In this document: positions 221-26,605 of the stretch, piece after piece
Layout of the letters: each line of letters begins with the position of its first letter
How positions within the stretch are numbered: position 1 is the first letter of the stretch
Source: Candidatus Accumulibacter conexus
GTDB lineage: Bacteria > Pseudomonadota > Gammaproteobacteria > Burkholderiales > Rhodocyclaceae
Direction of reading: 5' to 3'
DNA: 64,000 bases
Assembly: GCA_017592775.1 (NCBI GenBank)
Contig: JAGFNJ010000021.1
Location: 1-64,000, forward strand
Translations under genes and position numbers: made by a program
Notes under the pieces: generated by a model
The model's database searches: none
What the model was told of the DNA's origin: nothing
What the model saw: the letters and a program-made list of their open reading frames with translations, nothing else

Positions 221-658
221 TCACAGGCCTTGAGCCAGGCCGAGTTCCAGAGTCAGGCCGAGGCGCTGTGCGTTGACACCCTGCCTGCGATCCAGGGTAG
301 CAAATCGCCGAACGCCCAGGTCCTGCGCGACGGCAATGTGCAGGGCGTCTGCGCCGCGAAGCCCCTGCTCAAAATCATCCACCAGTACCGCCGCTGAGCG
401 GTAGGCAACCCGCGAGACGGGTACCAGCGTCAGGCCACCGGCAGCGAGTCGTTCGAACAAAGCCAGCACGTCACTGGCCTGCCGGCGGAGCAGTTGACCG
501 GTCCGGGTCTTGAGGGCAATGGCGCTGTGGAACTCGGTCAATGTCCAGTCGGCACTGACCGGTGTCTCGGAGAGATCTTCGAACCACCGTTCCACCCGGG
601 CCGTTCCTGTCTCCGGTGTCAACAAGGCCACCCAGACGCTGGTGTCAGCGTAGATCAT
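221..658 (-). CDS. vapC: VapC-type PIN-domain toxin (ribonuclease)
   Basis: This 145-residue protein has the PIN-domain layout: D5 in the opening IYADTSVW strand, E42, D104 in the GADALH motif and D123 in TLDRR. These are the usual four acidic Mg2+ ligands of VapC ribonucleases, and the length is typical. VapC toxins cut tRNA or rRNA when their antitoxin is degraded. The start codon shares one base with the stop of the upstream antitoxin gene (TGATG), so the pair is translationally coupled. The cut RNA cannot be read from sequence. Confidence 0.88.
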   Translation of the reverse strand: MIYADTSVWVALLTPETGTARVERWFEDLSETPVSADWTLTEFHSAIALKTRTGQLLRRQASDVLALFERLAAGGLTLVPVSRVAYRSAAVLVDDFEQGLRGADALHIAVAQDLGVRRFATLDRRQGVNAQRLGLTLELGLAQGL

Positions 659-1936: not shown

Positions 1937-2180
1937 TGCAACGTATGCGATTGATCCAAAAAACTTATTGCGCAACAGAGAGAGTGCCGCATAGCATCAA
2001 TGTAAGTTATGTCGACAGCCGGTAGCTGCAGCGGGAACCATGCAGGGCGATCTGAGCGAAGCTGCAAGGCCGATCGGCTGCTGCCGCCCGGCCCATGAGA
2101 AGCGCATGCGCCGACCCGTCCGGTGCGCCAGCCGGAAAGGGGTCGCCGCCTCGGCCAATGATCGCTGCCCTTTGCCTGGC

Positions 2181-2361
2181 GGGTCAGCGCCATGAACAGC
2201 TCCGGCAGCCGCTGCGGCAGCCGTTCGTTGCGGTCGATCACCGAGTAGCGGTGACCGAAATCGTGCACCTCGCCGTCAGCGCAGCCGTGTTCGCCGTAGA
2301 GCAGCGCGCGCGACAGCTCGGCCGAGCGATCGCGCAGCTGCGGGTCGCAGGCGCCGGCTAG
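2181..2361 (-). pseudogene. cbbO: Scar of cbbO: internal fragment fused to the 3' end
   Basis: Read on the minus strand, one frame first gives AGACDPQLRDRSAELSRALL-YGEHGCADG, matching an internal part of CbbO encoded near 23205-23295 (AGACDPQRFSCLRHRLAMLS, GEHGHADG). It then jumps to FGHRYSVIDRNERLPQRLPE and LFMALTR, matching the extreme C-terminus of CbbO encoded at 22027-22120. By eye the 3' part is about 93 percent identical at DNA level over 80 bases and the internal part about 80 percent. The stop codon is lost. The rest of the 1844-2418 interval holds the PEP-CTERM promoter and no other recognisable gene. Confidence 0.82.
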
Positions 2362-2418: not shown

Positions 2419-3114
2419 TCAGCCACCCATCGCGACATGATCCAACCGGTTCCATTGCAGCGCCCGCTGCCGCCAGTGCCCGGCAATTTGCTGCGTGAAA
2501 TCCGCCCGCACCAGCTTGGCCCTCGACTGCAGCCAGGAATCGTCCTCGCGCCGGACGATGACGCCCTCCAGCTGTCCGTCGCGAAAGGCACTCCGGCCAT
2601 CCATCACCAGTTGCTGCAACGCCTGCAGGCAGCACCGGCCACGCAGCAGCGAGGGAACGGTACACAGGCCCAGGCTCCCGGCCCATCGGTCACGCCGCTC
2701 GGTGCTCCAGAAGCGGCCGGCTTGGACGTCGTAAACATCGAAGAGCAACCACCAGTCGGGCAGGGCCGTGTAAGCAAGTGAGTGGCGCGCCGCGCACCAC
2801 TCCCCGAAGGCGACAAGATGTTCGCCAAGTGCATCGAACAATGCCTCCTCGCGCGGCGCCAGCCACTGAACCAGACGCGCGAACTGCCCGGCATGGGGTG
2901 CATCGAGGTAATGCCCACGGTTCTGAGCGCGGAGGACGCCATCCGGAGAAACCGAGAATCCGAGATTGGCGCCATCGAGCTTTTCTTCCACCACCACCGG
3001 CTCTGCGAGCAGAGCATCAGCCTCGACGACAGACAGCACCTTGTCGTCGCGCGGGATGCCGCCTCGCATCCAAGCCAGGTGCGGCGTGTGCGGAAAGCGG
3101 AAAAAGGCGCTCAT
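2419..3114 (-). CDS. RNA ligase-family nucleotidyltransferase
   Basis: This 231-residue protein carries the covalent nucleotidyltransferase motifs in order: motif I EEKLDG with nucleophile K45, motif III FGEW near 103-106, motif IIIa WLLFDVYDV at 122-130, motif IV EGVIVRR at 183-189 and motif V KLVRADF at 200-206. It has no extra DNA-ligase domains, so it is closest to Rnl2/DRB0094-like RNA ligases that seal nicked or broken RNA with ATP. It overlaps the PIN gene by 4 bp (ATGA) and is the last gene of a three-gene operon with an AAA ATPase. An RNA-repair role, for example resealing RNA cut by the PIN protein or by phage attack, is inferred. Confidence 0.8.
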   Translation of the reverse strand: MSAFFRFPHTPHLAWMRGGIPRDDKVLSVVEADALLAEPVVVEEKLDGANLGFSVSPDGVLRAQNRGHYLDAPHAGQFARLVQWLAPREEALFDALGEHLVAFGEWCAARHSLAYTALPDWWLLFDVYDVQAGRFWSTERRDRWAGSLGLCTVPSLLRGRCCLQALQQLVMDGRSAFRDGQLEGVIVRREDDSWLQSRAKLVRADFTQQIAGHWRQRALQWNRLDHVAMGG

Positions 3115-3650
3115 GGCCTGGGTGGCAAAGCCGGCAGATCACGTTCCGGAAACTTCTTCGCGTAGAACCGCTCGACGTCGGCCGGACAGAGAAAATGGAC
3201 CAGAATGCCTTGGGCTGCCAGTTGCGGCCACCAGTCCAGCCACTTGCTGTCGGCCCCCTGCCAGATCGGCGGCTTGTCGGGATGCGCGTTCGCCACGGCG
3301 GCGAATTTCCTGTCGGGAGGGTCGAAACGCTCCTCCAGCAACGGATCGGGGAACTCTACGAAACGGTCCGGCCCGGTCTCCGTGATCGGCACACGGCACA
3401 CGCGGCTGGTATTGGAGTGATTCTGCAGCAGCCACTTGAGGAAGGCGTCACCCACCCCCTTTGGCTCATTCGGATACGTCCTGTTTTGGTACTCGCCGAG
3501 AATGCGGTAACCATCGTCGATCACCACCATGCCGGACCGCTGCCTGGCCAGCAGCGCGCTGACGCAAGCTTCACGGCAGTTGCAGGAGACGTCCTGATGC
3601 CTGCCGTTGGCTACCAGCAACACGTTGGTATCGATCACCACCGGCGTCAT
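3111..3650 (-). CDS. PIN-domain putative ribonuclease coupled to an AAA ATPase
   Basis: This 179-residue protein opens with VVIDTNVLL (D7), followed by E53 in GEY, D113 in PDRKFAAVA and D134. This spacing of acidic residues matches a PIN-fold nuclease, although the protein is longer than VapC toxins and the pattern differs from the VapC at 221-658. It is coupled by 4-bp overlaps to the AAA ATPase upstream and the RNA ligase downstream, and no AbrB-type antitoxin is adjacent. The arrangement suggests a nuclease effector controlled by the ATPase. DNA rather than RNA cutting cannot be excluded. Confidence 0.72.
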   Translation of the reverse strand: MTPVVIDTNVLLVANGRHQDVSCNCREACVSALLARQRSGMVVIDDGYRILGEYQNRTYPNEPKGVGDAFLKWLLQNHSNTSRVCRVPITETGPDRFVEFPDPLLEERFDPPDRKFAAVANAHPDKPPIWQGADSKWLDWWPQLAAQGILVHFLCPADVERFYAKKFPERDLPALPPRP

Positions 3651-5026
3651 GCCGTCTCCCCCGCGGCCTGACGCCTGATCGCCTCAAGAGTGCGCGCCGC
3701 GATGTCGCCCATTTCGTCGCCAAAGAAGTTGACTGGCCAGTTTTCGATCTCACCGAAGACATTGAGGCGCAATGCCTCCAGATCCGCGCTCGCACCTTCG
3801 CGCTTGACGAAATACACCGCGACGTCGCTCGCCTCGATCCGGCGCTCCGCGACCCGGCGCTGCAGACGCGTGAGGAAATGCTCGGAGTGCGTCTCGATGA
3901 TCAACTGGGTGCCGCGGGCGCTGCCGCTCTCGTTGGACTGCACCGCGCTGATGAAGGCATCCGCCAGGTTGGCCTGGGCCGAAGGATGCAGATGGATTTC
4001 CGGTTGCTCCATCCAGACCACCGAATTGGGCGGGGAGTAGAAAGCCTGGACCAGCGCGGGCAGCACCTGCGAGACACCCACGCCGACGTCCGTCAGCTTG
4101 ACCACTGGCGACCTGGCATGGGTCCGTACCAGAACCTCGTATTCCTTTCGCCCCTCGGCCACCGGGTGGACCGCGAAACTGTCGATGACCCCCAGGTCGC
4201 GCAACCAGCCAGCGATGAACACGTCAAACGGCTGCAGCAACTGCCTCGGAGCGCGGTTCAGCTTGCGCCCCTGCCCGGTCGCCGCCAGCAGCGCGGCGAT
4301 CGCATGCTCACCAAGCGCTCCGACATGCGGCGGCGTCTCGCCCGACCACTGGTAGACACGGCGTGCCGGCTCGCGCAGCGGTCCGAGGTAGTACAGCCGC
4401 TCCAGCATTTCTTCGGCCTGCAACGCAAAGTCGGCCAGGAAGTCGGCATTCTGATAGCGAAGGAGCGTGCGGTCGGCAAAGCGGTAAAACTTCTCCGGTG
4501 GTTCCAGCGGCCACTTGCGGCCCATTGCCATCACCAGCTTCAGCGGTTCGCAGTCGAGCGACGTCCTGTCGCCACGCCGATGCGTCACCGCCAGTGACTC
4601 GGCGTCGCCCTGCAACAGCCGATACGCAAACGACTCGGTCTCGGGCTGGGCGTTCTTGTCCGCGCGCAGCGTCGACGACAACTCCAGTTCGCTACCCTTG
4701 AACACTTCCGACGAATTCAACGGGTTCCTGACGGTCAATACCTGCCGCAGCCGCCAGCGGAGGGAAAACATGATCTTCTGGCCCAGATCATGTCCATGGA
4801 CGCAATCGGCGAAGGTGCCCAAGTCGATCAGGGAATTCTGGTCCCCCAGGTGCAAGGCGCGCTTGCGGTCAGCCAACTGCACCGTCTGCTTCAGGGCCAG
4901 CAGAAGGTGGCCAAGGCTCGACTTGCCGGAACTGTTGGTGCCGAAGATCACGGTCAAGGGTGCGAGCGGAACCATCTCGGTGTCCTTCCACGCCTTGAAG
5001 TTCTGAATCTGCATCCGGGTCAGCAT
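3647..5026 (-). CDS. AAA15/21-type ATPase with C-terminal DUF3696
   Basis: This 459-residue SMC/OLD-like ATPase has Walker A GTNSSGKS at 29-36, a signature-like VGVGVSQVLP segment, and Walker B VVWMEQPEIHLHP. A LIIETHSEH switch follows. The C-terminus (NVFGEIENWPVNFFGDEMGDI) is typical of DUF3696. An AGGAG sits 6 bases before the ATG at 5026. OLD-like ATPases paired with a small nuclease are a recurring anti-phage layout in which the ATPase senses the infection and releases the effector. Here the partners are a PIN protein and an RNA ligase. No TOPRIM domain is present in this protein. Confidence 0.82.
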   Translation of the reverse strand: MLTRMQIQNFKAWKDTEMVPLAPLTVIFGTNSSGKSSLGHLLLALKQTVQLADRKRALHLGDQNSLIDLGTFADCVHGHDLGQKIMFSLRWRLRQVLTVRNPLNSSEVFKGSELELSSTLRADKNAQPETESFAYRLLQGDAESLAVTHRRGDRTSLDCEPLKLVMAMGRKWPLEPPEKFYRFADRTLLRYQNADFLADFALQAEEMLERLYYLGPLREPARRVYQWSGETPPHVGALGEHAIAALLAATGQGRKLNRAPRQLLQPFDVFIAGWLRDLGVIDSFAVHPVAEGRKEYEVLVRTHARSPVVKLTDVGVGVSQVLPALVQAFYSPPNSVVWMEQPEIHLHPSAQANLADAFISAVQSNESGSARGTQLIIETHSEHFLTRLQRRVAERRIEASDVAVYFVKREGASADLEALRLNVFGEIENWPVNFFGDEMGDIAARTLEAIRRQAAGETA

Positions 5027-5065
5027 GACGGCTCCTTTCGTTCAGCGGGCATTATGCAGCGCATC

Positions 5066-5193: not shown

Positions 5194-6339
5194 TCATCGA
5201 CGGAAGAGCTGCCGACGATGCCAGGCAAGGTAGCCGATGTGTGGCGCGGCCAACTCCGCCAGCCGCCAGCCCGGCTGCACCCCAAGCCGCACCTGCTGCT
5301 CGCCCGACAGTTCAGGGCTCACCAGCAGCCCGCCATCGTCGTCGAAGCTGATCCAGCCGCCATCGAACAGCGCATCCAGCTGCGGCGCCAGCAACAGGCC
5401 ATTGAACACGTCGAGACGCTCGGCGTCGCTGTCGCACTGCGCCCAGGGCCTGATGTGCGAGGCGCGCAACAGCGGCAGAACGTCGAGCCCGGTGACGGCG
5501 CAGCGCCCTTGCCAATAATCGATCAGCGACTGGCGGAAAATGTCCTGCCCGAGACGCTGGATGACCAGGCGCTCGGCTTCGGTCGTCGCCGGCAGCGCCT
5601 GCGTCTCTCGCCGGAAGGCCGCGGCGCCCTCGCCGGCCAGCAGTCGCGCCACCGCGCCGGCTCTCTGCAGCAGCGCGTGCAGGGCCTCGTAACCAGGCAC
5701 CGAGTCGAAAATAGCCGGCCAGTCGCCGGTGGACCGCAGCAGCGGCAGCCCGCGGTCGGCCGCCACCTTCTGCGCCCACGTGCGGGACGACAGGCCAACC
5801 CGAAACGTCTCCGCTGCCAGGACATGAACCGCCAGCGTGTCGGCGAAGGCGGTCGAGCGAAACACCAGCCAGCCGCCGTGCCGCTCCGGCGTGCGGTCGA
5901 AACCCCCGTCCTGCGCTGCCTTCTCGATGCGGGCCGCGACCAGCGCGCCGGGCGCGGCTACAACGGCGCTGGCCGTCTCCCTGTCACCCCGCCGAAACAT
6001 CTGCCAGGCGCCGAGGAAGGCTGCCAGGTCGCGGTGCGACCCGAAGGCCAGCCCGACCGGGTAGCTGCCGCGCTGGCCGGAAACGGTGCGCTCGCGCCGG
6101 GTGGCAGCATGGCCGCCCAGCCATTGCGACAGTTCACGTTCCGTCCGGCCGAGCAGCGGCGCCAGCGCCTTCGGCGCAAGGCCGATTTCCACCGCGTTGC
6201 CCGCCGCGTTGCCGGAAAAATACACGGCGCAGGTCTGGTTGGCGCCGGCGACCAGCCGGAAGTTGCCGTTGGCCATCGGGCGACGGCTGCCGAGCCCTGC
6301 GAAGGCATCGAGGATGAGGTTCTCCAGTTCGCGGCTCAT
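5194..6339 (-). CDS. HNH endonuclease (HNH_2-like)
   Basis: This 381-residue protein has an uncharacterised N-terminal region and an HNH module near residues 265-330: RCAVTGLDVLPLLRASHIRPW, then ERLDVFNGLLLAPQLDALFD. The first His, the central Asn and the following LDALFD are the hallmarks of this HNH subfamily, which is common in restriction and defence loci. It starts 6 bases after the stop of the DUF4276 gene, so it is very likely the third gene of that cassette and probably its DNA-cutting effector. The N-terminal half may hold a sensing or modification-reading domain, but I do not recognise it. Confidence 0.8.
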   Translation of the reverse strand: MSRELENLILDAFAGLGSRRPMANGNFRLVAGANQTCAVYFSGNAAGNAVEIGLAPKALAPLLGRTERELSQWLGGHAATRRERTVSGQRGSYPVGLAFGSHRDLAAFLGAWQMFRRGDRETASAVVAAPGALVAARIEKAAQDGGFDRTPERHGGWLVFRSTAFADTLAVHVLAAETFRVGLSSRTWAQKVAADRGLPLLRSTGDWPAIFDSVPGYEALHALLQRAGAVARLLAGEGAAAFRRETQALPATTEAERLVIQRLGQDIFRQSLIDYWQGRCAVTGLDVLPLLRASHIRPWAQCDSDAERLDVFNGLLLAPQLDALFDGGWISFDDDGGLLVSPELSGEQQVRLGVQPGWRLAELAAPHIGYLAWHRRQLFRR

Positions 6340-6345
6340 TGCGTG

Positions 6346-6942
6346 TCAGCCCGTCGTTCCGATCACCGCCAAGGCACGCTCGCACTCTTCGACGAACTTG
6401 CGGAACGATCGGCTGCCGGCAATTGCCGCTTCGATATCCAGCACGGCGGTCAACGCCGGCTGGTCGCTGACCTCGTGGTAACGCCCGTTCCGAATGCGCT
6501 GACAGAGCCAGCCTTTGGCGTCCCTGACCGCTTCGGCATCGCGCGGTGCCTGGAGATCATCCGGCAACCCGCGCCTGCCTGCGAGCGAATCCGCTCCAGC
6601 CAAGAGCCAGGCCTCGTACTCGTGATTGGCGATCACCACTGAAGAATGCACATGCGGAACAATCGCGGCGACGCGCGCAGCCAGCTCTTGAGCGAGTTCC
6701 ACCGGACAATCGTCATCAGCGTCGAGCAACACGAGGATAACGCCGTCGCCAGCCTTGGCAGCGGCGAGCAGGACTTGACGTCGAAACTCCTCGTCCCGCC
6801 GAATGAATCGGTCGCGATGGACGCGAATCGGAACCCCGACCTTCAGGTCGAACATCCCCCTCGCCAAGGCGATGCGCCGCAACAGGACCGGGACCGCCCG
6901 CACCTCGCCGTCGCCCTCGACGATGCAGACGACCGTCGTCAC
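6346..6942 (-). CDS. DUF4276 / TOPRIM-like protein
   Basis: The product is 198 residues from a GTG start that overlaps the upstream AAA gene by 4 bp (GTGA). It has IVEGDGE with E9 near the start and VLLDADDD with D74 and D76, the E and DxD pattern of TOPRIM folds as seen in DUF4276 proteins. Much longer upstream extensions of this frame run antisense-like through the AAA gene and were ignored. OLD-family systems pair an ABC-type ATPase with a TOPRIM nuclease, and here the two are separate coupled genes. Nuclease activity is inferred from the fold. Confidence 0.75.
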   Translation of the reverse strand: MTTVVCIVEGDGEVRAVPVLLRRIALARGMFDLKVGVPIRVHRDRFIRRDEEFRRQVLLAAAKAGDGVILVLLDADDDCPVELAQELAARVAAIVPHVHSSVVIANHEYEAWLLAGADSLAGRRGLPDDLQAPRDAEAVRDAKGWLCQRIRNGRYHEVSDQPALTAVLDIEAAIAGSRSFRKFVEECERALAVIGTTG

Positions 6943-8141
6943 GGCTCGGCTCCGAACAGCCGCAACTGTCGTCCTTCCGGGTCGCCGAAGCGCGTCGGAT
7001 CGGGCTCCAGTTGATTCAGCGTCAGCAACTCGCCGGCGGTGAACAACCCATCCCGAATGGCCTGCCGCGAGGCCTCGTCGGCCGGCGCGATCCGCGTCAC
7101 GCCGGCATTCGCCGAAACCGCCAGCAGGGTCTCCACGGCAATCGAGGCATCGTCCAGCAGTTCCGGGCTGTGGCTGGTGACCAGAATCTGGCTGCGCGTC
7201 GACGCGCGGGCCAGCGCGTCGCGCACGACGGCCGCTGCGGCGGGATGCAGAGCCACCTCGGGCTCTTCGATACCGATCAGGCTTGGCCGCCCGGTCTCGC
7301 CGCCCTGATACAGCGCCACCAGAATGCCCAGCGCCCGCAGCGTGCCGTCCGACATGCTGTTGGCCGGGAAGCGCCACGGGTGCTTGGCGCCGGCAATTTC
7401 CTGACGGAACTCCAGCGTTTCCATATGGCCGACGGGGGTACGCTCCACCCCGTGCACCGACGGCACTACCAGCCTCAGGTAGTCCTCGACCAGTTCCTTG
7501 TCCAGCGGTGCGTAACGCTCCATGAAGGACAACACGCTGGCGATGTTTTCGCCCAGCGATTTCAATTCGGAACCGTCCTGGGGCCTCTGCAGGTCGCGGA
7601 TCACGCGTGGATTGAGATTGTAGAAGCTCATCCGGCTCAACGCATCGAAGACTGGCCGGAATACCGGCAAGCCGCCCGCGTTCACCAGCGCCAGCCGGTC
7701 CGGCGTGCTGACCGGGAACACCTCTTCGCTGGTCTTTTCCGGCTTTCCCTGCACCACCACATAGTTCGACACGCCGCCCGCACCGCCGACGACGCACTCC
7801 TCGCGCTGCACCTCGAAGCCACCGGCCGGCCGGGCACCAATGTTGAAAGCGTAATGGCCCTCTCGCCCATCGGGCAACCGAAAATCCAGCCGCACGCCGA
7901 AATGGGTTGGATGCCCACCCGAGCGACGACGCACTTCCGACAGGCCGCCGCGCAATTGCAGGGCATTTTCGAGCGAACTCTGCAGCGCATCCTTGACGAA
8001 GTGCAGAACATCCAGGAAGTTGCTCTTGCCCGAGCCGTTCGGACCGACCAGATAGGTCAGCGGCCCCAGTTCGACGTCGCAGGCGGCGATGCTCTTGAAG
8101 TTCTTGGCCCTGACCCGGCGGATAAAAACGGTCGTGTCCAT
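6939..8141 (-). CDS. AAA_21-type OLD-like ATPase
   Basis: This 400-residue ATPase has Walker A GPNGSGKS at 33-40, a signature SMSDGTLRALG, Walker B LIGIEEPEVALHP and a LVTSHSPELLD switch histidine region. I prefer the ATG at 8141, which has AAAGGG 7 bases upstream and places the RAKNFKSI strand near the N-terminus. An ATG at 8165 is the alternative. It begins within 40 bases of the methylase stop and overlaps the DUF4276 gene by 4 bp, so all are probably co-transcribed. The likely role is a DNA- or damage-sensing ATPase controlling the TOPRIM-like and HNH partners. Confidence 0.83.
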   Translation of the reverse strand: MDTTVFIRRVRAKNFKSIAACDVELGPLTYLVGPNGSGKSNFLDVLHFVKDALQSSLENALQLRGGLSEVRRRSGGHPTHFGVRLDFRLPDGREGHYAFNIGARPAGGFEVQREECVVGGAGGVSNYVVVQGKPEKTSEEVFPVSTPDRLALVNAGGLPVFRPVFDALSRMSFYNLNPRVIRDLQRPQDGSELKSLGENIASVLSFMERYAPLDKELVEDYLRLVVPSVHGVERTPVGHMETLEFRQEIAGAKHPWRFPANSMSDGTLRALGILVALYQGGETGRPSLIGIEEPEVALHPAAAAVVRDALARASTRSQILVTSHSPELLDDASIAVETLLAVSANAGVTRIAPADEASRQAIRDGLFTAGELLTLNQLEPDPTRFGDPEGRQLRLFGAEP

Positions 8142-8179
8142 CGAAAAACCCTTTACGTCACTCATCGGTGTGCACGTTA

Positions 8180-11100
8180 TCAGCCGCCGCCGGCCAACGC
8201 ATCCCAGGCTTCCAGCACCAGGCGGCGGGTGCGGTATTCGCCGAACTGGCGGGTTTCGTTGTTCTTGAGGACGCGGAAGGTTTCGGAGGGGTAGTCGGCG
8301 CCCATGACGTCGGCGGGGTCGAGGATGTAGCGCAGTTCGTCACGGGTGAGGCCGTAGAGGCGGGCGTAGGTCGCGTCGAGTTCGGCGCGCAGGCGGGCGC
8401 GGCGGCCCAGGTCCCAGGTAAAAGGCGGGCCGGCGTGGCCGAGGTCGGCGGCCCAGGGCGCGAGGTCGTGCGCGGTGTAGGTCAGTTCGAGGACGCGTGG
8501 GACGATGAAGGCAAGGTCGGCTACGGTGTAGCGATCGGGCGGGAGGACGGGCAACTGCTTGTAGATGAAGTAGTTCATGTGCGTGCCGCCGGTCTTGTGG
8601 CGGGCGGCGAAATCGAACGCCAGTGCAGAAAGATTCCCGAGCAGGGCCGCGCACAGACGCCAATCTTGGCGCGGCGAAAAAAACATCAGCGGCAGGTTGT
8701 TCCCCACTCCCAGTCGCGGCACCACTGCCGCGATCACCGTGCGCTCAACTGAACGCAACGCAATGTCCCGCCAGCCCATTAACCAGCCACGCGCCCAGCC
8801 TTTAGCGGCAAGGCGTGTTTCAACCTCGTCAGCTTCGACCCAGTAGCGCGGCGTGACACTGAAGTTCGGGTCTGTCTTGGCGTCGAGCGCAACATCGCTG
8901 ATAGAACCGTCGGCGCTATAGGTCGCCCAGCGGTGATCGAATTGGTGGACCATCTTGGCTTCGTACAGAGGCAGCCGGCCGGGCGCCGGGGTATCGCGGA
9001 ACAAGTTGCTGTCGTTTGCCATGTGGAACATAGTCATGAAACGGATGCTCCACGGATTGCGCTCGGGCAGCCCCTCCGCGATCAGCACCGGCGCGACGCG
9101 GTAGAGCTTCTTGGTCAGTTCGGCATCACGTTCGCTCCGGAAGACCGGGCAGGTCAGCGTGTTGGGGTTAAGCAACCGAAAATCGTCGGCTGATAGCTGG
9201 AACCACTTCTGTGGCTGCGTAAAGTCGGCGACTGTCTTCGCATCGAACAAGAATTCTGCGAAATTAGTTCCCCCTAAAGTCAGAAGGCAGAAGGGCTTTC
9301 GGTCATCTGTGCTCTTGAACCAACCACGAATTTCATAAAGACTGAGAAGCCGACAAAGCCGCTTCGCCGAAACTAGATCAGAAAAAAACGCCTTGGTGCT
9401 GTCGTCCGTAGCGATACCGGTCGGCACGATGAAGCCGGCCCGCCCTTCGCCGCTGACCAGTTGCGAGAAGGTTTCGGCGAACAGCGCGTAGGTGTTCACA
9501 TCCCCGACGCCGGTCAACGGGTAGCGCCCGGAATCGTGGGCGAACAGGCTGGCCGCCTCGGCAATGCGGCGGGCAACGATGAAGTCGGCGTGCAGGGCCT
9601 GCTCGGCGACGTTCGGCGGCGTCATTCCCTGCGCCGCTTCGACTTCCGGATAGAGCGTGTGCAGCAGCATGCCATCGCGAAGCAGTTCGATGCGCCGGCC
9701 GCGCTCGGCTTTGTGCGGTGCTTCGGCGATCAGCGGGCTGCGGCTGGCAAAGAATTCCTCCTCCTGCAGCTTGATCCGTTCCCATGGCGGGTTACCGAGC
9801 AATACATCGAAGCCACCCTTCGCCCGCACCTGCGGAAAGGCCTGCCACCAGTGAAAGGCCAGTGCCGTTTGCGCGGCACTGGCGGCCTCTGCCGCGACGC
9901 CTGGGCGCGGAGCGCTCCCGTTGAGCACCAGCCAGAGATCCTGAGTGGTCGGCACGCTCGCCATCGTCTGTGGCGCCTTGGGCAGGACGAAGGCGGCGAC
10001 GAAAAGATCGGCGGCCAGCCGGACGCGCGAGGCGGCCCTCTTCGCTTCGGCCTCGACAAACGCTGCGCGCTTGGCTTCGAGCGCGGCCAGCGTGTCGTCG
10101 GGCAGGGCGTCGAGCGCTGCGGCCTCGGGCGCGGCGTCGAAGCCAAGGGCAAGGTTGAAGGCGGCGCGCGTTTTCGCCTTCTCGATCGCCTTCAGGGCGT
10201 CGCGATTGGCCTTCCTGAGCGCGGTGACGACGGCCTTGTCGTCGCCGGAGAGCGCGTTGAAGGCCTTGTCGGGGATGCCGGCTTCGAGAATCACCGGGTC
10301 GAGGATGCCGAGCAGCGCGTCGCCGCAGCGCAGGTGGTGGTCGAGGAAGGTCAACGGCCGGTCGGGAGTGTAGGCTTCGAGCCAGAGCGCGGTGCGGGCA
10401 AGTTCGACGGCGAGCGGGTTCTTGTCCACACCGTAGATGCAGTGGGCGACGACGTCGCGCAGCGCGTGGCGGTAGTCGGCCGGCAGCGGGTTGCCGTCGG
10501 TGGCTGACAGGCGGGCGACTTCCTCGGCGATGCGGCGGGCGGCGGCAAGCAGGAAGTGGCCGGAACCGCAGGCCGGGTCGCAAACGCTCAGTTCGAGCAG
10601 CGCCTGCACCGGCCGCTGCGGGTGGGTGGCCAGCGCTTGCGCGATCACCGGGTCGAGCGCGCTCTTGATCAGCTCCTGCACCAGGCTGTCGGGCGTGTAA
10701 TACGAGCCACTGAGCTTGCGGGCGTTGCCCTTGGTGCTGCCACCCGCGTGCTCCTCCGCGTCGCCGATGAAGCCAAAGCGGCGGACGCTGGCGCTCAGGC
10801 TCAGTTCGGGTACCAGTTCGAGCAGGCTTTCGTAGACGCTGCCGAGTTCCTCGGAATCCATGTCGCGGTAATTGACGCGCGACAGCGCGGCGCCGTCGCG
10901 GAAGAAGCAGAGGCCGAAGAGCGCGCTGAGCAGCGACTGGTTGTCGAGCTGGGCGGCGTCGAGGTCCGCGCATTGCGCGGCGTCGAAGAGGCCACCGAGC
11001 GCCGGCAGGCCAAGCGCTGGCTGGCCACCACCGAGGCCGGCGAAGGTGATGGCCAGTGCCTGCCAGAGGTCGGCATGGCGATCGTAGCTGCGCCGCCGGG

Positions 11101-12112
11101 CGGCCAGCCGGCGCAGGCGGGCGAGGCTGTAGCCGGCGAGGTAGCGCGCCCTGGCCTCGCCGCTGGCCTCGGGCGCGAAGACGAGTTCGCGATCCTCGAT
11201 GGTGGCGAGGAAGATGAAGCGGTAGACGAGGCGCAGCAGTTGCTCGAAGTAGGTTTGGGTGCCCAGCTCGCCGCTTTCGATGCGGCGGCGCAACTCGCCG
11301 TTGGCGGGGTGGGCGAGAAAGCCGGTACCAAGCACACGCAGGGCAGCGGCGACGCCTTCGCGCAGCCGGTCGCGGACGCGGATGCCGTCTTCCTGGGCGG
11401 TGTTGCGCCAGTGTTCGAGCGGGCAGTCGGCCGGCTCGGCGCCGGCCTGACCGAAACGCGTGGCGTGGGCGAGCAGCCAGAGAGCGGCGAAATCGGGGTA
11501 GAGCCCTTCGCTGAAGACGGCTTCGAGATCAGCCTCGATGTAGGCGGGCCGGGTCAGACTGGCGTTGTCGCGCAGGACGCGCAGCTTGAGGCCGTTGCTG
11601 ACGATGGCCCAGAGCGAGGCGTGGCTGGCATTGAGAACCTCCTGGGCGAGCAGGAAGGGCGAGCGACGGCGCGTGCCGTCGCCGTGCCGGCTGCCCGGCT
11701 TGTCGAGCGGCTGGTCGTGACCGGCGAAAACGAGCGGCACGCGGCCGTCGACCGCGGCATGACCGATGGGGAAGCTGCGCTCGCCGATGGCCACCGGGCC
11801 GACCCGCTTGATGTCCGCGAAGCCAAGCACATGGCGGCAGAAGGGTTCGAGGAAGTCGTGGGCGCTCACCTTGCAGGCGTCGAGATCGGCGCGTTCGCGG
11901 CGGGCGGCGAAGTCCTGCCAGAGGTTCTGCGCGATCTTCCAGTAGCGGCCGATCTCGTCGCGCAGCTTGAGGCCGCGCGGGATGTCGTAGTCGCTCTCCG
12001 ACTGCTCCTCGGCTTCGAGGTGGGCGATCCGGTTGAGGAAGTCGGGCGCCAGCAGCCCGCCCTCGATGGTCAGGGCGGTGAAGGCAAGTTCGGTGCTCGA
12101 GCGGCGGGCCAT
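8180..12112 (-). CDS. Adenine-specific DNA methylase, Eco57I/DrmMI type
   Basis: This large protein of about 1310 residues has the N6-adenine methylase motifs DPACGSGHFL (motif I, near residue 517) and GNPPW (motif IV, near 774). A long N-terminal region and a C-terminal target-recognition-like half surround them. Size and motifs match the class 1 DISARM methylase DrmMI and other Eco57I-like methylases of phage-defence loci, which mark host DNA as self. The ATG at 12112 (MARRSSTEL) was chosen because it starts 7 bases after the stop of the preceding ATPase gene; the longer start at 12181 overlaps that gene. No separate specificity subunit is seen. Confidence 0.83.
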   Translation of the reverse strand: MARRSSTELAFTALTIEGGLLAPDFLNRIAHLEAEEQSESDYDIPRGLKLRDEIGRYWKIAQNLWQDFAARRERADLDACKVSAHDFLEPFCRHVLGFADIKRVGPVAIGERSFPIGHAAVDGRVPLVFAGHDQPLDKPGSRHGDGTRRRSPFLLAQEVLNASHASLWAIVSNGLKLRVLRDNASLTRPAYIEADLEAVFSEGLYPDFAALWLLAHATRFGQAGAEPADCPLEHWRNTAQEDGIRVRDRLREGVAAALRVLGTGFLAHPANGELRRRIESGELGTQTYFEQLLRLVYRFIFLATIEDRELVFAPEASGEARARYLAGYSLARLRRLAARRRSYDRHADLWQALAITFAGLGGGQPALGLPALGGLFDAAQCADLDAAQLDNQSLLSALFGLCFFRDGAALSRVNYRDMDSEELGSVYESLLELVPELSLSASVRRFGFIGDAEEHAGGSTKGNARKLSGSYYTPDSLVQELIKSALDPVIAQALATHPQRPVQALLELSVCDPACGSGHFLLAAARRIAEEVARLSATDGNPLPADYRHALRDVVAHCIYGVDKNPLAVELARTALWLEAYTPDRPLTFLDHHLRCGDALLGILDPVILEAGIPDKAFNALSGDDKAVVTALRKANRDALKAIEKAKTRAAFNLALGFDAAPEAAALDALPDDTLAALEAKRAAFVEAEAKRAASRVRLAADLFVAAFVLPKAPQTMASVPTTQDLWLVLNGSAPRPGVAAEAASAAQTALAFHWWQAFPQVRAKGGFDVLLGNPPWERIKLQEEEFFASRSPLIAEAPHKAERGRRIELLRDGMLLHTLYPEVEAAQGMTPPNVAEQALHADFIVARRIAEAASLFAHDSGRYPLTGVGDVNTYALFAETFSQLVSGEGRAGFIVPTGIATDDSTKAFFSDLVSAKRLCRLLSLYEIRGWFKSTDDRKPFCLLTLGGTNFAEFLFDAKTVADFTQPQKWFQLSADDFRLLNPNTLTCPVFRSERDAELTKKLYRVAPVLIAEGLPERNPWSIRFMTMFHMANDSNLFRDTPAPGRLPLYEAKMVHQFDHRWATYSADGSISDVALDAKTDPNFSVTPRYWVEADEVETRLAAKGWARGWLMGWRDIALRSVERTVIAAVVPRLGVGNNLPLMFFSPRQDWRLCAALLGNLSALAFDFAARHKTGGTHMNYFIYKQLPVLPPDRYTVADLAFIVPRVLELTYTAHDLAPWAADLGHAGPPFTWDLGRRARLRAELDATYARLYGLTRDELRYILDPADVMGADYPSETFRVLKNNETRQFGEYRTRRLVLEAWDALAGGG

Positions 12113-12119
12113 GGGCGAG

Positions 12120-13571
12120 TCAGGTGCGGAAACGGAGCAGGTTGCGGGCGATGGTGTAGCAGTGCAGGGCAACCGGCGCAAACTCGACCGGCACGCCGTC
12201 GAGGTCGGCCGTGCTGGTCCAGGTGCGGGTGGTCACCAGCGGGCGGCGGGCGAGGGGATGCCGGCTGGCCAGGGCCTTGATGCCGCGCAGTTCCTGCAAC
12301 TGGTGGGGAATGCGGTCGGACCACTTGATTTCGACGGCGAAACGGGGCTTCTGGGTACGCGGGTCGAGCGAGACGATATCCACTTCCAAGTCCTGCCGAC
12401 CGGCCTTCCAGCGGGCGTAATGGAGCGAGTGGCTGGTCGAGGTGTCGTGCAGCCACTGGCTCCAGACGGCGGTTTCGGCGAGATTGCCCATGGCGCGGTC
12501 TTCTGCCCCGACAAACCCGAAAAGGGCGGCGCGCACCGACGGGTTGGTGAGGTAGACCTTGAAGCTGCGGGCGCGCTGGAGCCGCAAGGCGCTCTCGTCG
12601 ATGCGATGGACGCGGCGGATGAGGAAAGCCGCTTCCAGGTATTCGAGGTATTCGGACAGGCGTTGCTTGCCGATATTGGCATGTTGCGAGAGCGCCTCCA
12701 GACCGACCTCGTCGCCGGTGTTGAATGCCAGCACGTTGAAGAAGCGGTTGAGTTCCTGGGTGTCCGAAATGCCGTAGAGGCTGGGCAGGTCCTTGAGCAG
12801 CACCTTGTCGATGATGTCCTGCCGCAGGAAACGCGCCGGGTTGGCACGCACGGCCGGGCTGGTGACCGCTTCGGGAAAGCCGCCGAAGTTCAGGTAATTG
12901 AGGAATTCATCGTTGAGGCTGTGGATGTCGGTGGCGAGGTAACGGGAGGGGCCGCCAGCCTCGTCTTCCCGCTCGCTGATCAGGCTTTCGTCCCGGCCGG
13001 CAAAGCGCAGGTACTCGGCGAAGGTGAGGGGCGGCAGGACGAATTCGGTGAAGCGCCCGGCACCGGATTCCCGGCTCTTCATGCGCAGGGTGGCCGCGGC
13101 CGAGCCGCTGGCGATGAAGCGGATGTGAGTGTAGGTGTCGACCAGGGACTTGAGATGCACTTCCCAGTCCTTGAGGTACTGCACCTCGTCGAACAACACC
13201 CAGTATTGGCCGGCCGCCGGGTGCTGGTGCTGTTCCATGAACAGGCGGACCAGGCTTTCCAGGCTGCGCCCGGAGTACAAGGGAGTATCCAGTGAAACGT
13301 AGAGGATCGCCACGCCGGGGACGCCGCCATCGAGCAGCCGCTGCACCAGGTGCTTGAGCATGACGGTCTTGCCCACCCGCCGCGGCCCGATGAGCACGAC
13401 CGCCCGCCGCACCCCGGTTTCCTGTACCAAGTGAGCGAAATGGGGAAAGTAGTCGCGCCGGGGCCAGCCCGCCTCGTCGGCATCAATGCCAGCGCCCCCT
13501 TTCCACCACGGGTTATCGACGCTCAGACGGCGCTGGACTTCCTGGAGGGGGATTTCGAGTGCTGACGACAT
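12120..13571 (-). CDS. AAA_14/DUF4143 ATPase
   Basis: This 483-residue protein has Walker A GPRRVGKT at 62-69, Walker B YWVLFDEV at 123-130 and a C-terminal DUF4143 region. The C-terminus has LEVDIVSL and FAVEIKWSD, a D...ExK pattern like a PD-(D/E)XK nuclease core. Such ATPases are widespread and poorly understood; many look mobile. It interrupts the helicase-methylase series, is preceded by an AT-rich 197-base gap with a perfect 14-bp inverted repeat, and has no clear ribosome binding site. It may therefore be a later insertion with its own promoter rather than a core part of the defence operon. Confidence 0.82.
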   Translation of the reverse strand: MSSALEIPLQEVQRRLSVDNPWWKGGAGIDADEAGWPRRDYFPHFAHLVQETGVRRAVVLIGPRRVGKTVMLKHLVQRLLDGGVPGVAILYVSLDTPLYSGRSLESLVRLFMEQHQHPAAGQYWVLFDEVQYLKDWEVHLKSLVDTYTHIRFIASGSAAATLRMKSRESGAGRFTEFVLPPLTFAEYLRFAGRDESLISEREDEAGGPSRYLATDIHSLNDEFLNYLNFGGFPEAVTSPAVRANPARFLRQDIIDKVLLKDLPSLYGISDTQELNRFFNVLAFNTGDEVGLEALSQHANIGKQRLSEYLEYLEAAFLIRRVHRIDESALRLQRARSFKVYLTNPSVRAALFGFVGAEDRAMGNLAETAVWSQWLHDTSTSHSLHYARWKAGRQDLEVDIVSLDPRTQKPRFAVEIKWSDRIPHQLQELRGIKALASRHPLARRPLVTTRTWTSTADLDGVPVEFAPVALHCYTIARNLLRFRT

Positions 13572-22026: not shown

Positions 22027-24324
22027 TCAGCGCGTCAGCGCAATGAACAGCTCCGGTAGCCGCTGCGGCAGCCGTTCGATGCGGTCGATCACCGCGTAGC
22101 GGTGACCGAAGATGTGACCGACGTAATCGTCCGCCTTGGCGTCGAGGCTGATGCAGTAGCTGAAGATCCCTTGCCGGTCAAGCTCGCCGACCGCCTTGCG
22201 CGCGTCCTCGATCAGCAGCCGGTCGTCGGATACGTCGACGTCCGACGGCCGGCCGTCGGTGAGGACCAGCAGCAGCTTCTTCTCCGCCCTGCTCCCCGCG
22301 AGGTAATGCGCCGCGTGCCGCAACGCGGCACCGATGCGCGTCGAATAGCCGGCCTGCATCGCCGCCAGGCGGCGCTTGACGGCGTCGCCCCAGGGCTCGC
22401 TGCTGCCCTTGAGATGCAGGTAGCGGACGTCATGCCGGGTATCCGAATGGAAGCCGGCGATGGCGAACGGGTCGCCGAGCTGGTCGATCGACCAGGCGAG
22501 CAGCGACACCGCCTCCTGGCTGAGTTCGAGCACCGTCTGCTCAGCATTGCCACCGCCGACCTTGTCGGCCAGCGACTCGGAAAGATCGAGGAGCAGCAGG
22601 ACGGCGAGGTTGCGACCGTTGCTGCGGTGGCTCATGTTGATCCGCGGATCGGGCGTGACGCCGCTGCGCAAGTCGATCAGCGAGCGGACGGCGACATCGA
22701 GGTCGAGTTCGCTGCCGTCCTCCTGATGGCGCAGGCGAACCCGTTCCTGCGGCTTGAGGATGTCGAGCAGGCGCTTGAGCCGGCGGGCGAGTGCGGCGTG
22801 CCGGTCGAGCAGCCGGTCGATCAGCGCCGCGTCGCCCGCCGGGTGCAGCGATTCATAGAGGCTCACCCAGTCGGGACGGTAGCTCTGGCTGTGATGGTCC
22901 CACTCCGGGTAATGACGCGGCGGCAGGCGGTCGATTTCGGCGCTGGCGCTCGCCGGACGGTTTTCGGCGAACATCTCCTCGTCGTCGGAGAGTTCGTGGA
23001 AGCGCCAGAGATGGCGGTTGTCGTCGCGGTAGTCGACCAGCGTATCGGTGAAGTACACCTCCGGCAACTGGTCGCTCTGCCGGCGCGTTCGCGCCACGTA
23101 GGCGAGCGCCAGCTCGGCCATCGCCTGGCTGCTCGCCTCGCCATCGGCCAGCGCCCGCCGGAAGCGGGCGACGAATTCGCGCAGGTCACCGTCGGCGTGG
23201 CCGTGTTCGCCATCGAGCAGGGCGCGCGACAGCATGGCCAGGCGATGGCGCAGGCAGGAGAAGCGTTGCGGGTCGCAGGCGCCGGCAACGGGGCGCGGAT
23301 GCAGCGCGCCGAAGATGCGCCGCATGCCCGGGTAGCGGCGGACGACCAGCGTGTCGATGCGGCTGTCCTCGAAGGTCTCGACCGCCAGGCGCTGCATCGG
23401 GCTGAGGTTGTCGGCGAAGAGGGGCGTGCTCCAGCGCCGGTGGCCGGCGATGTGTGCCAGTGCGGCGCGGTAGCGGTCGATGCCGCTGACGCCATGCGCA
23501 TCGTCGAGGACGTCGGGCAGGCGGATGCCAGCCGCGTCGTCGTAGGGCTGCGCGGGCGGTATCGGCGACGCCGGGTTGGCGGCTTCGCTGCCGACGGCGT
23601 ACGGGACGAGCAGCGCCCGCTCGCCCCAGAGGCCCCGCAGATAGAGGTCGAGCAGGCGCTCGTGGTCGACCAGCAGGGTACCGTGCCGTTCGCGCTGGAA
23701 GACGGCGCGGCTGTCGGCCGACTGCAGGCGGAAGTAGTCACGCTGACGTTCGGGGTGGCTGGCGTAGTTGCGCACGCCGTAGTCGACCCAGTTCGTCAGG
23801 CCGACGATGCTCAGGCTGGCGAGCAGCGTCGGCGCCCGGACGAGGAATTCGGGCAGGCAGGGGCTGGCGAAGGTCTTGTGGATGCCGTGGATCGACCCCG
23901 AAGTCTGCTCCATCAGGCGCAGTGTCAGGTCGAGATAGCGCTGCAACTGCCCACCGGCGGCAAGCCGCCGCGACACGGCGGCGAGGCTCTGCAGGAACGG
24001 GGCGATGGCCTTGCCATTCGGCGACTTGTGCAAGCGCTGCAGCGTCGCGACCACCGCCGGCAGGGTCTCTTCGCCGACGCTGCGCGCGACTGCCGGCCAT
24101 TCCTCGAGGAAGGCCAGCAGCGGTTCGGCGCCACGGCCGATGCGTCCGAGGAAGCGGGCGCAGTCGAGGTAGGCGTCGACGCCCGCCGGCGTGAGGACGG
24201 CGATGGCTTCGCGCAGGCAGTCGGCGAAGACGCCGTCGACCTGTGGCAGCCGACAGTCGAGCCGCGCACGGCAGGCGGCCAGACGGTCCGCCGCCAGCGC
24301 CGGGGGAGTCTCGCTGCCGCGCAT
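22027..24324 (-). CDS. cbbO: CbbO, RuBisCO activase subunit with von Willebrand A domain
   Basis: The 765-residue protein ends in a VWA domain with the MIDAS motif DLSES and a LTDGRPSDVDVSDDR segment. CbbO works with the hexameric AAA+ CbbQ as a RuBisCO activase: the VWA domain anchors the complex to form II RuBisCO while CbbQ supplies ATP-driven remodelling that removes inhibitory sugar phosphates. It follows cbbQ by 14 bases, in the order cbbM-cbbQ-cbbO. NorD proteins are close relatives, but the neighbours decide for CbbO. Its 3' end is duplicated as a scar at 2181-2361, across the defence island. Confidence 0.9.
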   Translation of the reverse strand: MRGSETPPALAADRLAACRARLDCRLPQVDGVFADCLREAIAVLTPAGVDAYLDCARFLGRIGRGAEPLLAFLEEWPAVARSVGEETLPAVVATLQRLHKSPNGKAIAPFLQSLAAVSRRLAAGGQLQRYLDLTLRLMEQTSGSIHGIHKTFASPCLPEFLVRAPTLLASLSIVGLTNWVDYGVRNYASHPERQRDYFRLQSADSRAVFQRERHGTLLVDHERLLDLYLRGLWGERALLVPYAVGSEAANPASPIPPAQPYDDAAGIRLPDVLDDAHGVSGIDRYRAALAHIAGHRRWSTPLFADNLSPMQRLAVETFEDSRIDTLVVRRYPGMRRIFGALHPRPVAGACDPQRFSCLRHRLAMLSRALLDGEHGHADGDLREFVARFRRALADGEASSQAMAELALAYVARTRRQSDQLPEVYFTDTLVDYRDDNRHLWRFHELSDDEEMFAENRPASASAEIDRLPPRHYPEWDHHSQSYRPDWVSLYESLHPAGDAALIDRLLDRHAALARRLKRLLDILKPQERVRLRHQEDGSELDLDVAVRSLIDLRSGVTPDPRINMSHRSNGRNLAVLLLLDLSESLADKVGGGNAEQTVLELSQEAVSLLAWSIDQLGDPFAIAGFHSDTRHDVRYLHLKGSSEPWGDAVKRRLAAMQAGYSTRIGAALRHAAHYLAGSRAEKKLLLVLTDGRPSDVDVSDDRLLIEDARKAVGELDRQGIFSYCISLDAKADDYVGHIFGHRYAVIDRIERLPQRLPELFIALTR

Positions 24325-25225: not shown

Positions 25226-26605
25226 TCAGCGATGCACGCCGAGCCGGTCGCGCCAGCCCGGATGCAGCATGTCGGCATCGCCAGGGAAGGATTCGAAGGC
25301 GCGCGCGAACTCGCGGTGCTGACGCGCCCATTCGATCGGGTCGGCGCCGGCCTTCCAGCACTCGTAGGCCTGCCGCAGCGAGACCGCGCCGGCGGCCGGG
25401 CTGTCGATGTGGCCGTACGAGCCGCCACCGGCGGTGTTGATGACGTTGCCGTGACCGAGGTTGGCGAAGAATCCCGGCAGGCGCAGGGCGTTCATGCCGC
25501 CCGAGATGATCGGCGTCGTCGGCTTCATGCCGTACCATTTCTGGTAGTAGGCGGGACCCTGGTACTCGTCGCGTTCGATGATGTAGGCGATCGCCCGGTC
25601 ATCGGCGTCGCCTTCCATCTTGCCGAAGCCCATCGTGCCGACGTGTATTCCCGAGGCCCCCTGCAGTCGCGCCATCTTCGCCAGGACATAGGCGGTGTAG
25701 CCGCGCTTCGAGCTGGGCGAGGTGATGGCGCCATGGCCGGCGCGATGGTAGTGCAGATACTGGTTCGGGTACTGGCGACGGGCGGTGGTGACCATGCCGG
25801 GGCCACCGACATAGCCGTCGACGAGAAACGCCACCTTGTCGGCATCCGGACCGAAAGTCTCGAGGATGTAGTCGGCACGTGCGCACATCTCGTAATGGTC
25901 ATCGGCGGTGATGTTGGCGGAGAAGATCTTGGCCTGCCCGGTTTCGTCCTGCGCCCGCTTCATGGCGTCGTAGACGAGCGGCATGACCTTCTTCATCGGC
26001 GCAAAGACCTGGTTGCCCTGTGGCTCGTCGTTCTTGATGAAGTCGCCACCGAGCCAGAACTGGTAGGCGGCGGCGGCGAATGGCTCCGGGCGCAGGCCAA
26101 GCTTCGGCTTGATGATCGTGCCGGCAATGTAGCCACCGTCGCGGATCGGCCGGCCGAGGATGCGCCAGAGATCGGAGATGTCCTTCGCCGGCCCATCGAA
26201 GAGTTGCAGCGCGCGCTCCGGGACGTAGAAGTCGTAGATCTTGGCGTGCTCGATGTCGCCCATCCCCTGGTTGTTGCCGATGCACAGCGTCAGGAAGGAG
26301 ACGATCATCATGCGACCGTCGGTGACATTGCGGTCGAAGAGTTCGACCGGATAGGCGATCCGCATTTCCTCGCTGGCTTCGTCGATGTGGTAGACGAGCG
26401 CGTCGACGCCACGCGTGAAGTCGTCCGTCGTGCTCACCTCGACGTTGGTACCGGTCGATGATTCGGCGGCAAAGTGCGCGGCTGCCGGCAGGTAATCGTA
26501 GCCCGCCTTCGGCTTCATCTTGTAGGCGACGAGGATGTGCCGGCCACCCTGGATCAGATCCTCTTCCCGGAGGCTGAGGTCGGCGTAACGATTCGATTGG
26601 TCCAT
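25226..26605 (-). CDS. cbbM: Form II ribulose-1,5-bisphosphate carboxylase/oxygenase
   Basis: This 459-residue form II RuBisCO large subunit needs no small subunit. All key residues fall at Rhodospirillum rubrum numbering: K166 (GTIIKPK), carbamylated K191 with D193 and E194 ([12 protein letters not shown]), H287 (HYHRAGHG), loop-6 K329 (GFGKM) and S368 (ISGG). It should be fully active, fixing CO2 on ribulose bisphosphate in the Calvin-Benson cycle. AGGGAGA lies ahead of the start. The low CO2/O2 specificity of this form suits low-oxygen conditions. No LysR-type cbbR gene is adjacent; the divergent neighbour is transketolase. Confidence 0.98.

Follow-up and report, generated by a model that had tools for sequence, protein, structure and literature searches.

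Coupling of an RNA ligase-family gene to a HEC-03-like ATPase and PIN nuclease operon: a candidate defence module with a putative built-in antidote

To our knowledge, most RNase effectors of defence systems are treated as one-way switches that are held by sequestration or by antitoxin binding. In OLD and Gabija the ATPase is fused to a Toprim nuclease, and in phage T4 the Pnkp/Rnl1 enzymes repair tRNA cut by PrrC. Here we analyze an operon in a stretch of 64,000 nucleotides (the window) of Candidatus Accumulibacter conexus, contig JAGFNJ010000021.1, which is part of a 4.87-Mb genome; the operon encodes on the minus strand, in this order, an ATPase, a PIN-like nuclease and a protein of the RNA_ligase family. 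Among the closest described systems, PARIS (AriA/AriB) consists of an ATPase that senses and sequesters and a nuclease that cuts tRNA, according to the passages available of PMC12409363, whereas RtcAB repairs tRNA cut by host nucleases, RtcB joining 2′,3′-cyclic phosphate to 5′-OH ends (passages of PMC11090510). The HECs, candidate systems recorded in PADLOC, trace to a preprint (Payne et al. 2024, as cited in the sources at hand). In the literature searched the name HEC-03 appears in one paper, in passing, and the passage available of PMC12988326, which reports several HECs active against viruses and names HEC-06, makes no mention of HEC-03.

The ATPase and the PIN-like nuclease of the window are an already catalogued candidate, HEC-03, and the ligase-bearing form is unnamed in the sources searched. 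Since the arrangement of the three genes recurs across distant genomes, it exceeds chance. The operon is widespread and probably serves as an anti-virus alarm. We consider the chances about even that it is a defence module built on the "ABC-type ATPase plus RNase" scheme, putatively directed against phages and with RNA as its predicted target, in which the predicted ligation activity of the third protein would provide a built-in enzymatic antidote.

Organization of the operon and its relation to described systems

The operon comprises the following elements:

3647..5026, minus strand: ATPase of the AAA_15/DUF3696 kind, HEC-03B-like, 459 aa, predicted sensor holding the nuclease (Pfam, PADLOC)
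3111..3650, minus strand: PIN-like nuclease, HEC-03A-like, 179 aa (PADLOC; profile-profile match to PIN_3)
2419..3114, minus strand: RNA ligase-family protein, 231 aa (Pfam RNA_ligase; PHROG RNA ligase)
5032..5038, minus strand: ribosome-binding site AAAGGAG, 5 nt ahead of the ATPase ATG (read from the sequence)

Both junctions are overlaps of 4 bp. The coordinates of the reading frames and the position of AAAGGAG bear out the original prediction, made by a model from the letters of the window, that the three genes form one coupled operon behind a ribosome site. The same prediction knew of no named system with this trio, which, within the sources searched, holds for the ligase-bearing form and fails for the ATPase and PIN pair: the two proteins match HEC-03B (2.8e-126) and HEC-03A (4.3e-25) over most of their length and are encoded by adjacent overlapping genes, which places them in HEC-03. 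At E up to 1 HEC-03A is the one PADLOC model that the PIN protein matches, and for HEC-03 PADLOC has A and B proteins and nothing for the ligase.

PARIS shares with the operon an AAA_15-type ATPase and a separate RNase effector. The AriA profiles match the ATPase at 3.2e-25, far below HEC-03B; the effector is a PIN protein and not the Toprim protein expected of AriB, and a ligase is added. PD-T4-4 also combines an ATPase with a nuclease and is trailed by the same ligase family at two loci (L052 and L016, see below), but its ATPase and nuclease belong to other families and PADLOC has A and B proteins and no ligase for it; no PD-T4-4 model is matched by the PIN protein or the ligase of the window, nor does one appear among the best 25 of the 118 matches of the ATPase. 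The ATPase profile NsnB of Menshen (Nsn) matches at 1.9e-54; Menshen (NsnA+NsnB+NsnC) was rejected as an assignment because the PIN protein and the ligase match no Nsn model. The term "OLD-like", applied earlier to the ATPase, proved a loose label: unlike in OLD and Gabija the protein ends in DUF3696, no Toprim family matches its 459 residues in Pfam at E up to 1, and the nuclease is a separate protein. Like T4 Pnkp/Rnl1 and RtcAB, the ligase is proposed to undo RNase damage; those ligases are phage-borne or encoded in a separate operon, whereas here the ligase is co-encoded with the nuclease, and an end-healing gene is absent from the three-gene operon. A literature search, whose scope included neither bioRxiv preprints nor the majority of subscription journals, found no description of the trio, and an earlier account may exist.

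Sequence features of the three proteins

Pfam assigns no family to the PIN protein of the window at E up to 1, and assignment through Pfam alone therefore fails for this protein. PIN_3 is matched at E up to 1 by 21 of 65 relatives (best 3.2e-4), a weak match when taken alone, since unrelated families reach similar best values with up to six members. When the alignment of the 65 relatives was compared, profile to profile, with 29 PIN_3 proteins (from 30 loci, one of which has no usable frame), the probability was 94.9% (E 4.6e-8), with 0.3% for the ligase alignment used as a control. The alignment sets D7, E53, D110/D113 and D134 opposite the acidic residues of PIN_3. Counted, as for all three proteins, over the gathered rows covering each position, near-copies included, D7 is kept in 103 of 105 rows, D45 and E53 in 107 of 107, and D110 and D113 in 108 of 108, and position 134 is Asp in 101 and Glu in seven of 108. 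The metal-binding acidic residues claimed in the original prediction are supported by sequence profile and conservation, and a PIN fold with an acidic metal site is predicted from the sequence profile; a search of solved structures with the PIN profile returned nothing useful. The sole change at D7, to Gly, occurs in one genome (L017 6704-7243, equal to L037 7465-8004), where both the ATPase and the ligase remain as open frames; the copy is either altered by nature or misread in the draft.

The ATPase matches AAA_15 (8.1e-23) and DUF3696 (1.8e-8) in Pfam. In the motif GTNSSGKS, which we take to be Walker A, residues G34, K35 and S36 are kept in all 95 rows covering them; E340, in the presumed Walker B region MEQPEIHLHP, and H380 are each present in 98 of 98. 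The residue following E340 is Gln in 59 rows, Glu in 38 and His in one. ABC ATPases keep a catalytic Glu at the position where many of these proteins have Gln. Many of them may therefore hydrolyze slowly, which, we infer, would be more in keeping with a holding device than with a motor.

The third protein matches Pfam RNA_ligase (PF09414) at 3.1e-32, covering positions 1-170 of the 171 in the profile, and the PHROG RNA ligase at 1.4e-18, with no match in PADLOC or NCBIfam at E up to 1. K45, D47, G48 and E105 are kept in 111 of 111 rows, and E183 and K200 in 112 of 112; we assume these to include the KxDG lysine, the glutamates of motifs III and IV and the lysine of motif V. The invariance of all six agrees with the core RNA-ligase motifs noticed earlier, and with the nucleotidyltransferase motifs of PF09414 in place RNA ligation is the predicted activity.

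A DNA-directed pair, in which the PIN protein would nick DNA and the ligase seal it, has also been considered. Stand-alone PIN effectors of about 179 aa are mostly RNases, which counts against it, as do the Pfam and PHROG matches to RNA ligases, with no DNA-ligase Pfam family found in the protein at E up to 1. The best, weak, match of the ligase profile in the Protein Data Bank (PDB) is 3qwu, named a DNA ligase (E 0.0026), and two further DNA ligase rows appear in that search, where most other ligase rows are named RNA ligase. The same ligase family also stands beside PD-T4-4_B, which is PD-(D/E)xK-like by eye (Pfam gives no family) and may cut DNA. Taken together, we give the DNA-directed alternative a very small probability. 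The many ADP-ribosyl cyclase rows in the PDB search were judged to be chance matches.

Conservation of the trio and exchange of the ligase

A scan at the species level, with one genome per species, confirmed the ligase in at least 559 of 591 candidate stretches, and the best 80 of these at least 559 loci were taken as the ligase-drawn set. The full trio is present in 64 of the 80 and a PIN gene lies directly upstream of the ligase in 76. Three loci with PIN and ligase (L030, L050, L051) are cut by a contig end, and at nine others PIN and ligase are present and no ATPase was found. The four loci without PIN are L052 (PD-T4-4), L095 (PDC-S46), L070 (contig end) and L096 (ligase alone). Several ligase-drawn loci are near-copies; the 112 gathered ligases form 94 clusters at 95% identity, of which 74 have the full trio, 11 the PIN only, one the ATPase only and eight neither. 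The PIN-drawn set, obtained from HEC-03A profile matches in 12 of 399 genomes of the order and 15 of 398 of the phylum, consists of 24 different loci, the window included. All 24 have the ATPase, which is no more than suggestive of a toxin-antitoxin relation, and 19 have the ligase; at a twentieth, L117, the first 12 ligase residues are present at the contig end. HEC-03 as a two-gene system, which its model names imply, does not describe these 19 loci and L117, where the ligase is a third gene. Joint conservation of the ligase and the PIN protein with the ATPase, on which the original prediction had staked itself in advance, was therefore found in both sets, and at the level of genes a cutter does stand beside a sealer under an ATPase.

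The ligase profile matched in 19 of 398 phylum genomes, and all 11 close matches (E below 1e-60) lie in trios; the other eight genomes have a lone fragment (G513) or distant ligases, with no PIN or ATPase within about 3.5 kb. Among 200 relatives, including the genome of the window, 14 have a ligase match. The trio is found in the window genome and in G014, G001, G021 and G082, and with divergent ATPase and PIN in G011, G182 and G062; G009 has PIN and ligase up to the contig end, G010 a different nuclease system with the ligase, and in G100 and G151 the ligase is longer and no PIN or ATPase was found. Two genomes of the same genus as the window, G024 and G016, contain decayed copies of the operon: in G024 the PIN gene is mostly gone and the ligase gene has lost its 5′ half, while 458 of the 459 ATPase residues are still covered by the match.

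A match to the ligase is present in 19 of 72,556 plasmid records. Five of seven plasmid neighbourhoods are trios (Azotobacter, two Aeromonas, Tistrella and Rhodococcus), annotated in the records as DUF3696 (AAA family ATPase in Tistrella), hypothetical protein and RNA ligase family protein. The other two (Pseudomonas and Variovorax; L197 4956-6974 and L198 4956-7449) have a longer ligase of about 285 aa, 30-33% identical, near a different AAA family ATPase, a different pairing. Phage records matched in three of 50,697 cases, with 25-30% identity, and viral contigs gave nine ligase loci, three with the full trio and one cut at the contig start. The relative at L185 (5998-6663, 45% identity) lies alone among small genes on an 80-kb viral contig, with no PIN or ATPase found, and may help a phage to counteract defences that cut RNA.

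The nine loci where PIN and ligase lack an ATPase match belong by name to Burkholderiales, Aquabacterium and plain Proteobacteria. Their ligases form one clade (support 100/99), in which the contig-end locus L051 is nested. Eight of the nine lie at the same chromosomal place, with two flanking gene families in common; the flanks look by eye like ordinary chromosome, and none of the nine PIN proteins has lost any of the six acidic positions. The PIN and ligase pair can thus persist without the ATPase sensor. Its retention at one chromosomal site in a well-supported clade is what an RNA processing or splicing pair might show, the PIN protein cutting and the ligase joining in normal maturation and the ATPase and the defence neighbourhood coming later. 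Such a role is made improbable by the patchy spread (ligase in 14 of 200 relatives, PIN in 15 of 398 phylum genomes), by the carriage on plasmids, by the decayed copies in G024 and G016 and by the exchange of PIN types described below.

The degree to which the three proteins have diverged together was estimated from 81 trios (57 ligase-drawn, 17 PIN-drawn, six from relatives and the window), a set that understates co-divergence because most of its members were picked for ligase similarity, and from the fairer set of 18 PIN-drawn trios, the window included. Repeats and near-copies (L015, L037, L075, L100, L103 and L113) were left out of the correlations, and these six together with L024-L027 and short rows out of the ligase tree. 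PIN and ATPase identities are strongly correlated (rho 0.875, n=81; 0.908, n=18). For ligase and PIN rho is 0.12 in the larger set, where the largest of 200 shuffles gave 0.138, and 0.40 in the PIN-drawn set (P 0.004, 500 shuffles), rising to 0.49 when PIN class 5 is omitted; for ligase and ATPase the values are 0.15 (largest shuffle 0.173) and 0.35 (P 0.026). Given these weak correlations, the ligase is co-inherited with the PIN protein and the ATPase in part, and its exchange is partial. Similar ligases adjoin PIN proteins that are only 20-30% identical; in L081/L063 and L112/L057 ligases 84-85% identical adjoin PIN proteins 22-25% identical.

A replacement of the PIN gene alone can be seen by comparing L086 (Comamonas kerstersii) with L101 (Thauera phenylacetica). 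Over 1285 bp of ATPase DNA the two loci share 91% identity, and beginning with the start of the ligase they share 88% over 1950 bp, but the PIN protein encoded in between has been replaced (30% identity). The ATPases are 90-100% identical up to the last block of at most 50 columns, where identity falls to 60%; this change of the ATPase end along with the PIN hints that the ATPase tail may fit its own PIN.

The ligase is also found behind other nucleases. At L052 it follows PD-T4-4 (PD-T4-4_A 4.9e-203, PD-T4-4_B 2e-93, PADLOC), and L016 is of PD-T4-4 type by a nuclease 75% identical to that of L052, its ATPase reading frame being interrupted. Between the two ligases identity is 63%, less than the 80% and 77% that they share with trio ligases; in the ligase tree they are split by a starred branch (99/96), each amid trio ligases, and a single origin is allowed in 12% of 200 bootstrap trees. 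Two separate gains of the ligase by PD-T4-4 would be the simplest reading. A search for PD-T4-4_B itself gave two weak matches in 399 order genomes and one matching record among plasmids. At L095 the ligase stands beside PDC-S46, an AAA_13 protein, a context seen once. The ligase therefore appears to be a portable part exchanged among nuclease partners. A second, partial ligase-like stretch lies downstream in L052 (9998-10150), where an HNH match begins.

Pfam and PADLOC scans of the window place the operon at one edge of a defence island that contains an HNH_2 gene, a HEC-01 pair, an IIG/DrmMI-like protein, a PDC-S01 ATPase, a DpdE/DrmD-like helicase and a Druantia-E-like helicase. The features nearest to the operon are:

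5194-6339: HNH_2 gene adjoining the HEC-01-like pair
6346-8165, minus strand: HEC-01-like pair, a DUF4276 protein and an AAA ATPase (PADLOC 3e-76 and 2.1e-170)
8180-12181: IIG/DrmMI-like protein adjoining the HEC-01-like pair

Relatives of the IIG protein occur in 23 of the 80 ligase loci and relatives of the HNH protein in 22. Downstream of the ligase (2179-2361, minus strand) are pieces 46% and 86% identical to the VWA protein encoded at 22027-24324 (minus strand); they resemble a partial copy of that gene, and similar pieces are found in G014, G024 and G016. A second PIN gene, which belongs to the ordinary PIN family of Pfam (1.1e-11), lies separately at 221-658 (minus strand), and past the defence island a RuBisCO large-chain gene at 25226-26605 (minus strand; Pfam 2.3e-123).

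Proposed role of the ligase

By analogy with AriA and AriB of PARIS, the ATPase may sense an infection cue and until then keep the PIN protein inactive; once released, the nuclease would cut cellular RNA, probably tRNA, as VapC-like PIN enzymes do. PIN nucleases leave 5′-phosphate and 3′-hydroxyl ends, which ATP-dependent RNA ligases join without end-healing. The cuts of the PIN protein would thus yield ends that the ligase could join directly, so that no healing enzyme would be needed, and none is found in the operon. Leaky cutting, or all cutting after a false alarm, could then be reversed and the cells would recover, and only strong activation would outpace the ligase. The occurrence of ATPase and PIN without the ligase, and of PIN and ligase without the ATPase, reads as two control layers over one dangerous enzyme. 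More specifically, and with somewhat less than even confidence, we propose that the ligase is an enzymatic antitoxin that reseals the RNA cuts of the neighbouring toxin, portable across PIN types, PD-T4-4 and perhaps PDC-S46, with one lineage keeping a stand-alone, sensorless cut-and-seal pair of PIN and ligase. Such a resealing antidote would be, as far as we know, of a new kind. Both alternatives raised in the original prediction, reversible damage as a response and protection of the host from its own effector, fit these results.

Several observations weigh against this proposal. Four of the 24 PIN-drawn loci (L108, L116, L120 and L130) have neither a ligase nor a clear remnant of one, and two of them, L108 and L120, with PIN and ATPase classes of their own, are the two highest HEC-03A scorers; the ligase is therefore not needed for the ATPase and PIN pair. 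The ligase stands alone on a bacterial contig at L096, and no PIN or ATPase was found with five relatives on viral contigs (L185 and L188-L191), so that the family has uses beyond PIN. T4 Rnl2 has a C-terminal domain beyond the nucleotidyltransferase core; the 231 aa of the ligase correspond approximately to the core alone and leave no space for such a domain, and sealing of ordinary 5′-phosphate RNA is therefore not assured. The separate gains by PD-T4-4 could instead be one gain with later replacement of the ligase. Finally, the weak co-divergence of ligase and PIN speaks against a dedicated protein-protein antitoxin, yet the correlation in the PIN-drawn set exceeds that of the shuffles. Because of this weak co-divergence it may be suggested that what the ligase recognizes is the broken RNA and not the PIN protein.

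The near-indifference of the ligase to PIN type favours a role in general repair or as an antidote. As general RNA repair cargo the ligase would mend breaks of any origin, such as those made by phage RNases or island toxins, rather than the product of the PIN protein specifically, and would neighbour nucleases as fellow genes of defence islands. Its exchange among different nuclease genes, the solitary copy at L096 and the viral relatives without PIN or ATPase are in line with such a function; its position directly 3′ of a nuclease gene, overlapping it or at most 30 nt from the PIN stop in 75 of the 76 loci measured, and the persistence of PIN and ligase without the ATPase in nine loci, eight of them at one chromosomal place, argue for a closer bond, and we think general repair unlikely. 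Strict coupling in the operon would also suit a ligase that is part of the weapon, misjoining or circularizing the cut RNA and so making the damage worse or permanent. The chance of this appears slight, given the four loci with ATPase and PIN alone, and the viral contigs with ligase relatives lacking PIN fit a protective role better.

If the ligase does act as the proposed antidote, its co-encoding with nucleases of more than one kind suggests that RNA-cutting defences include repair as a level of control, one that would allow reversible damage, a threshold for suicide and recovery from false alarms. The ligase may also serve as a marker, since RNA-cutting effectors can be sought upstream of members of its family, and the comparison suggests a possible role for the solitary ligases of this family on phages.

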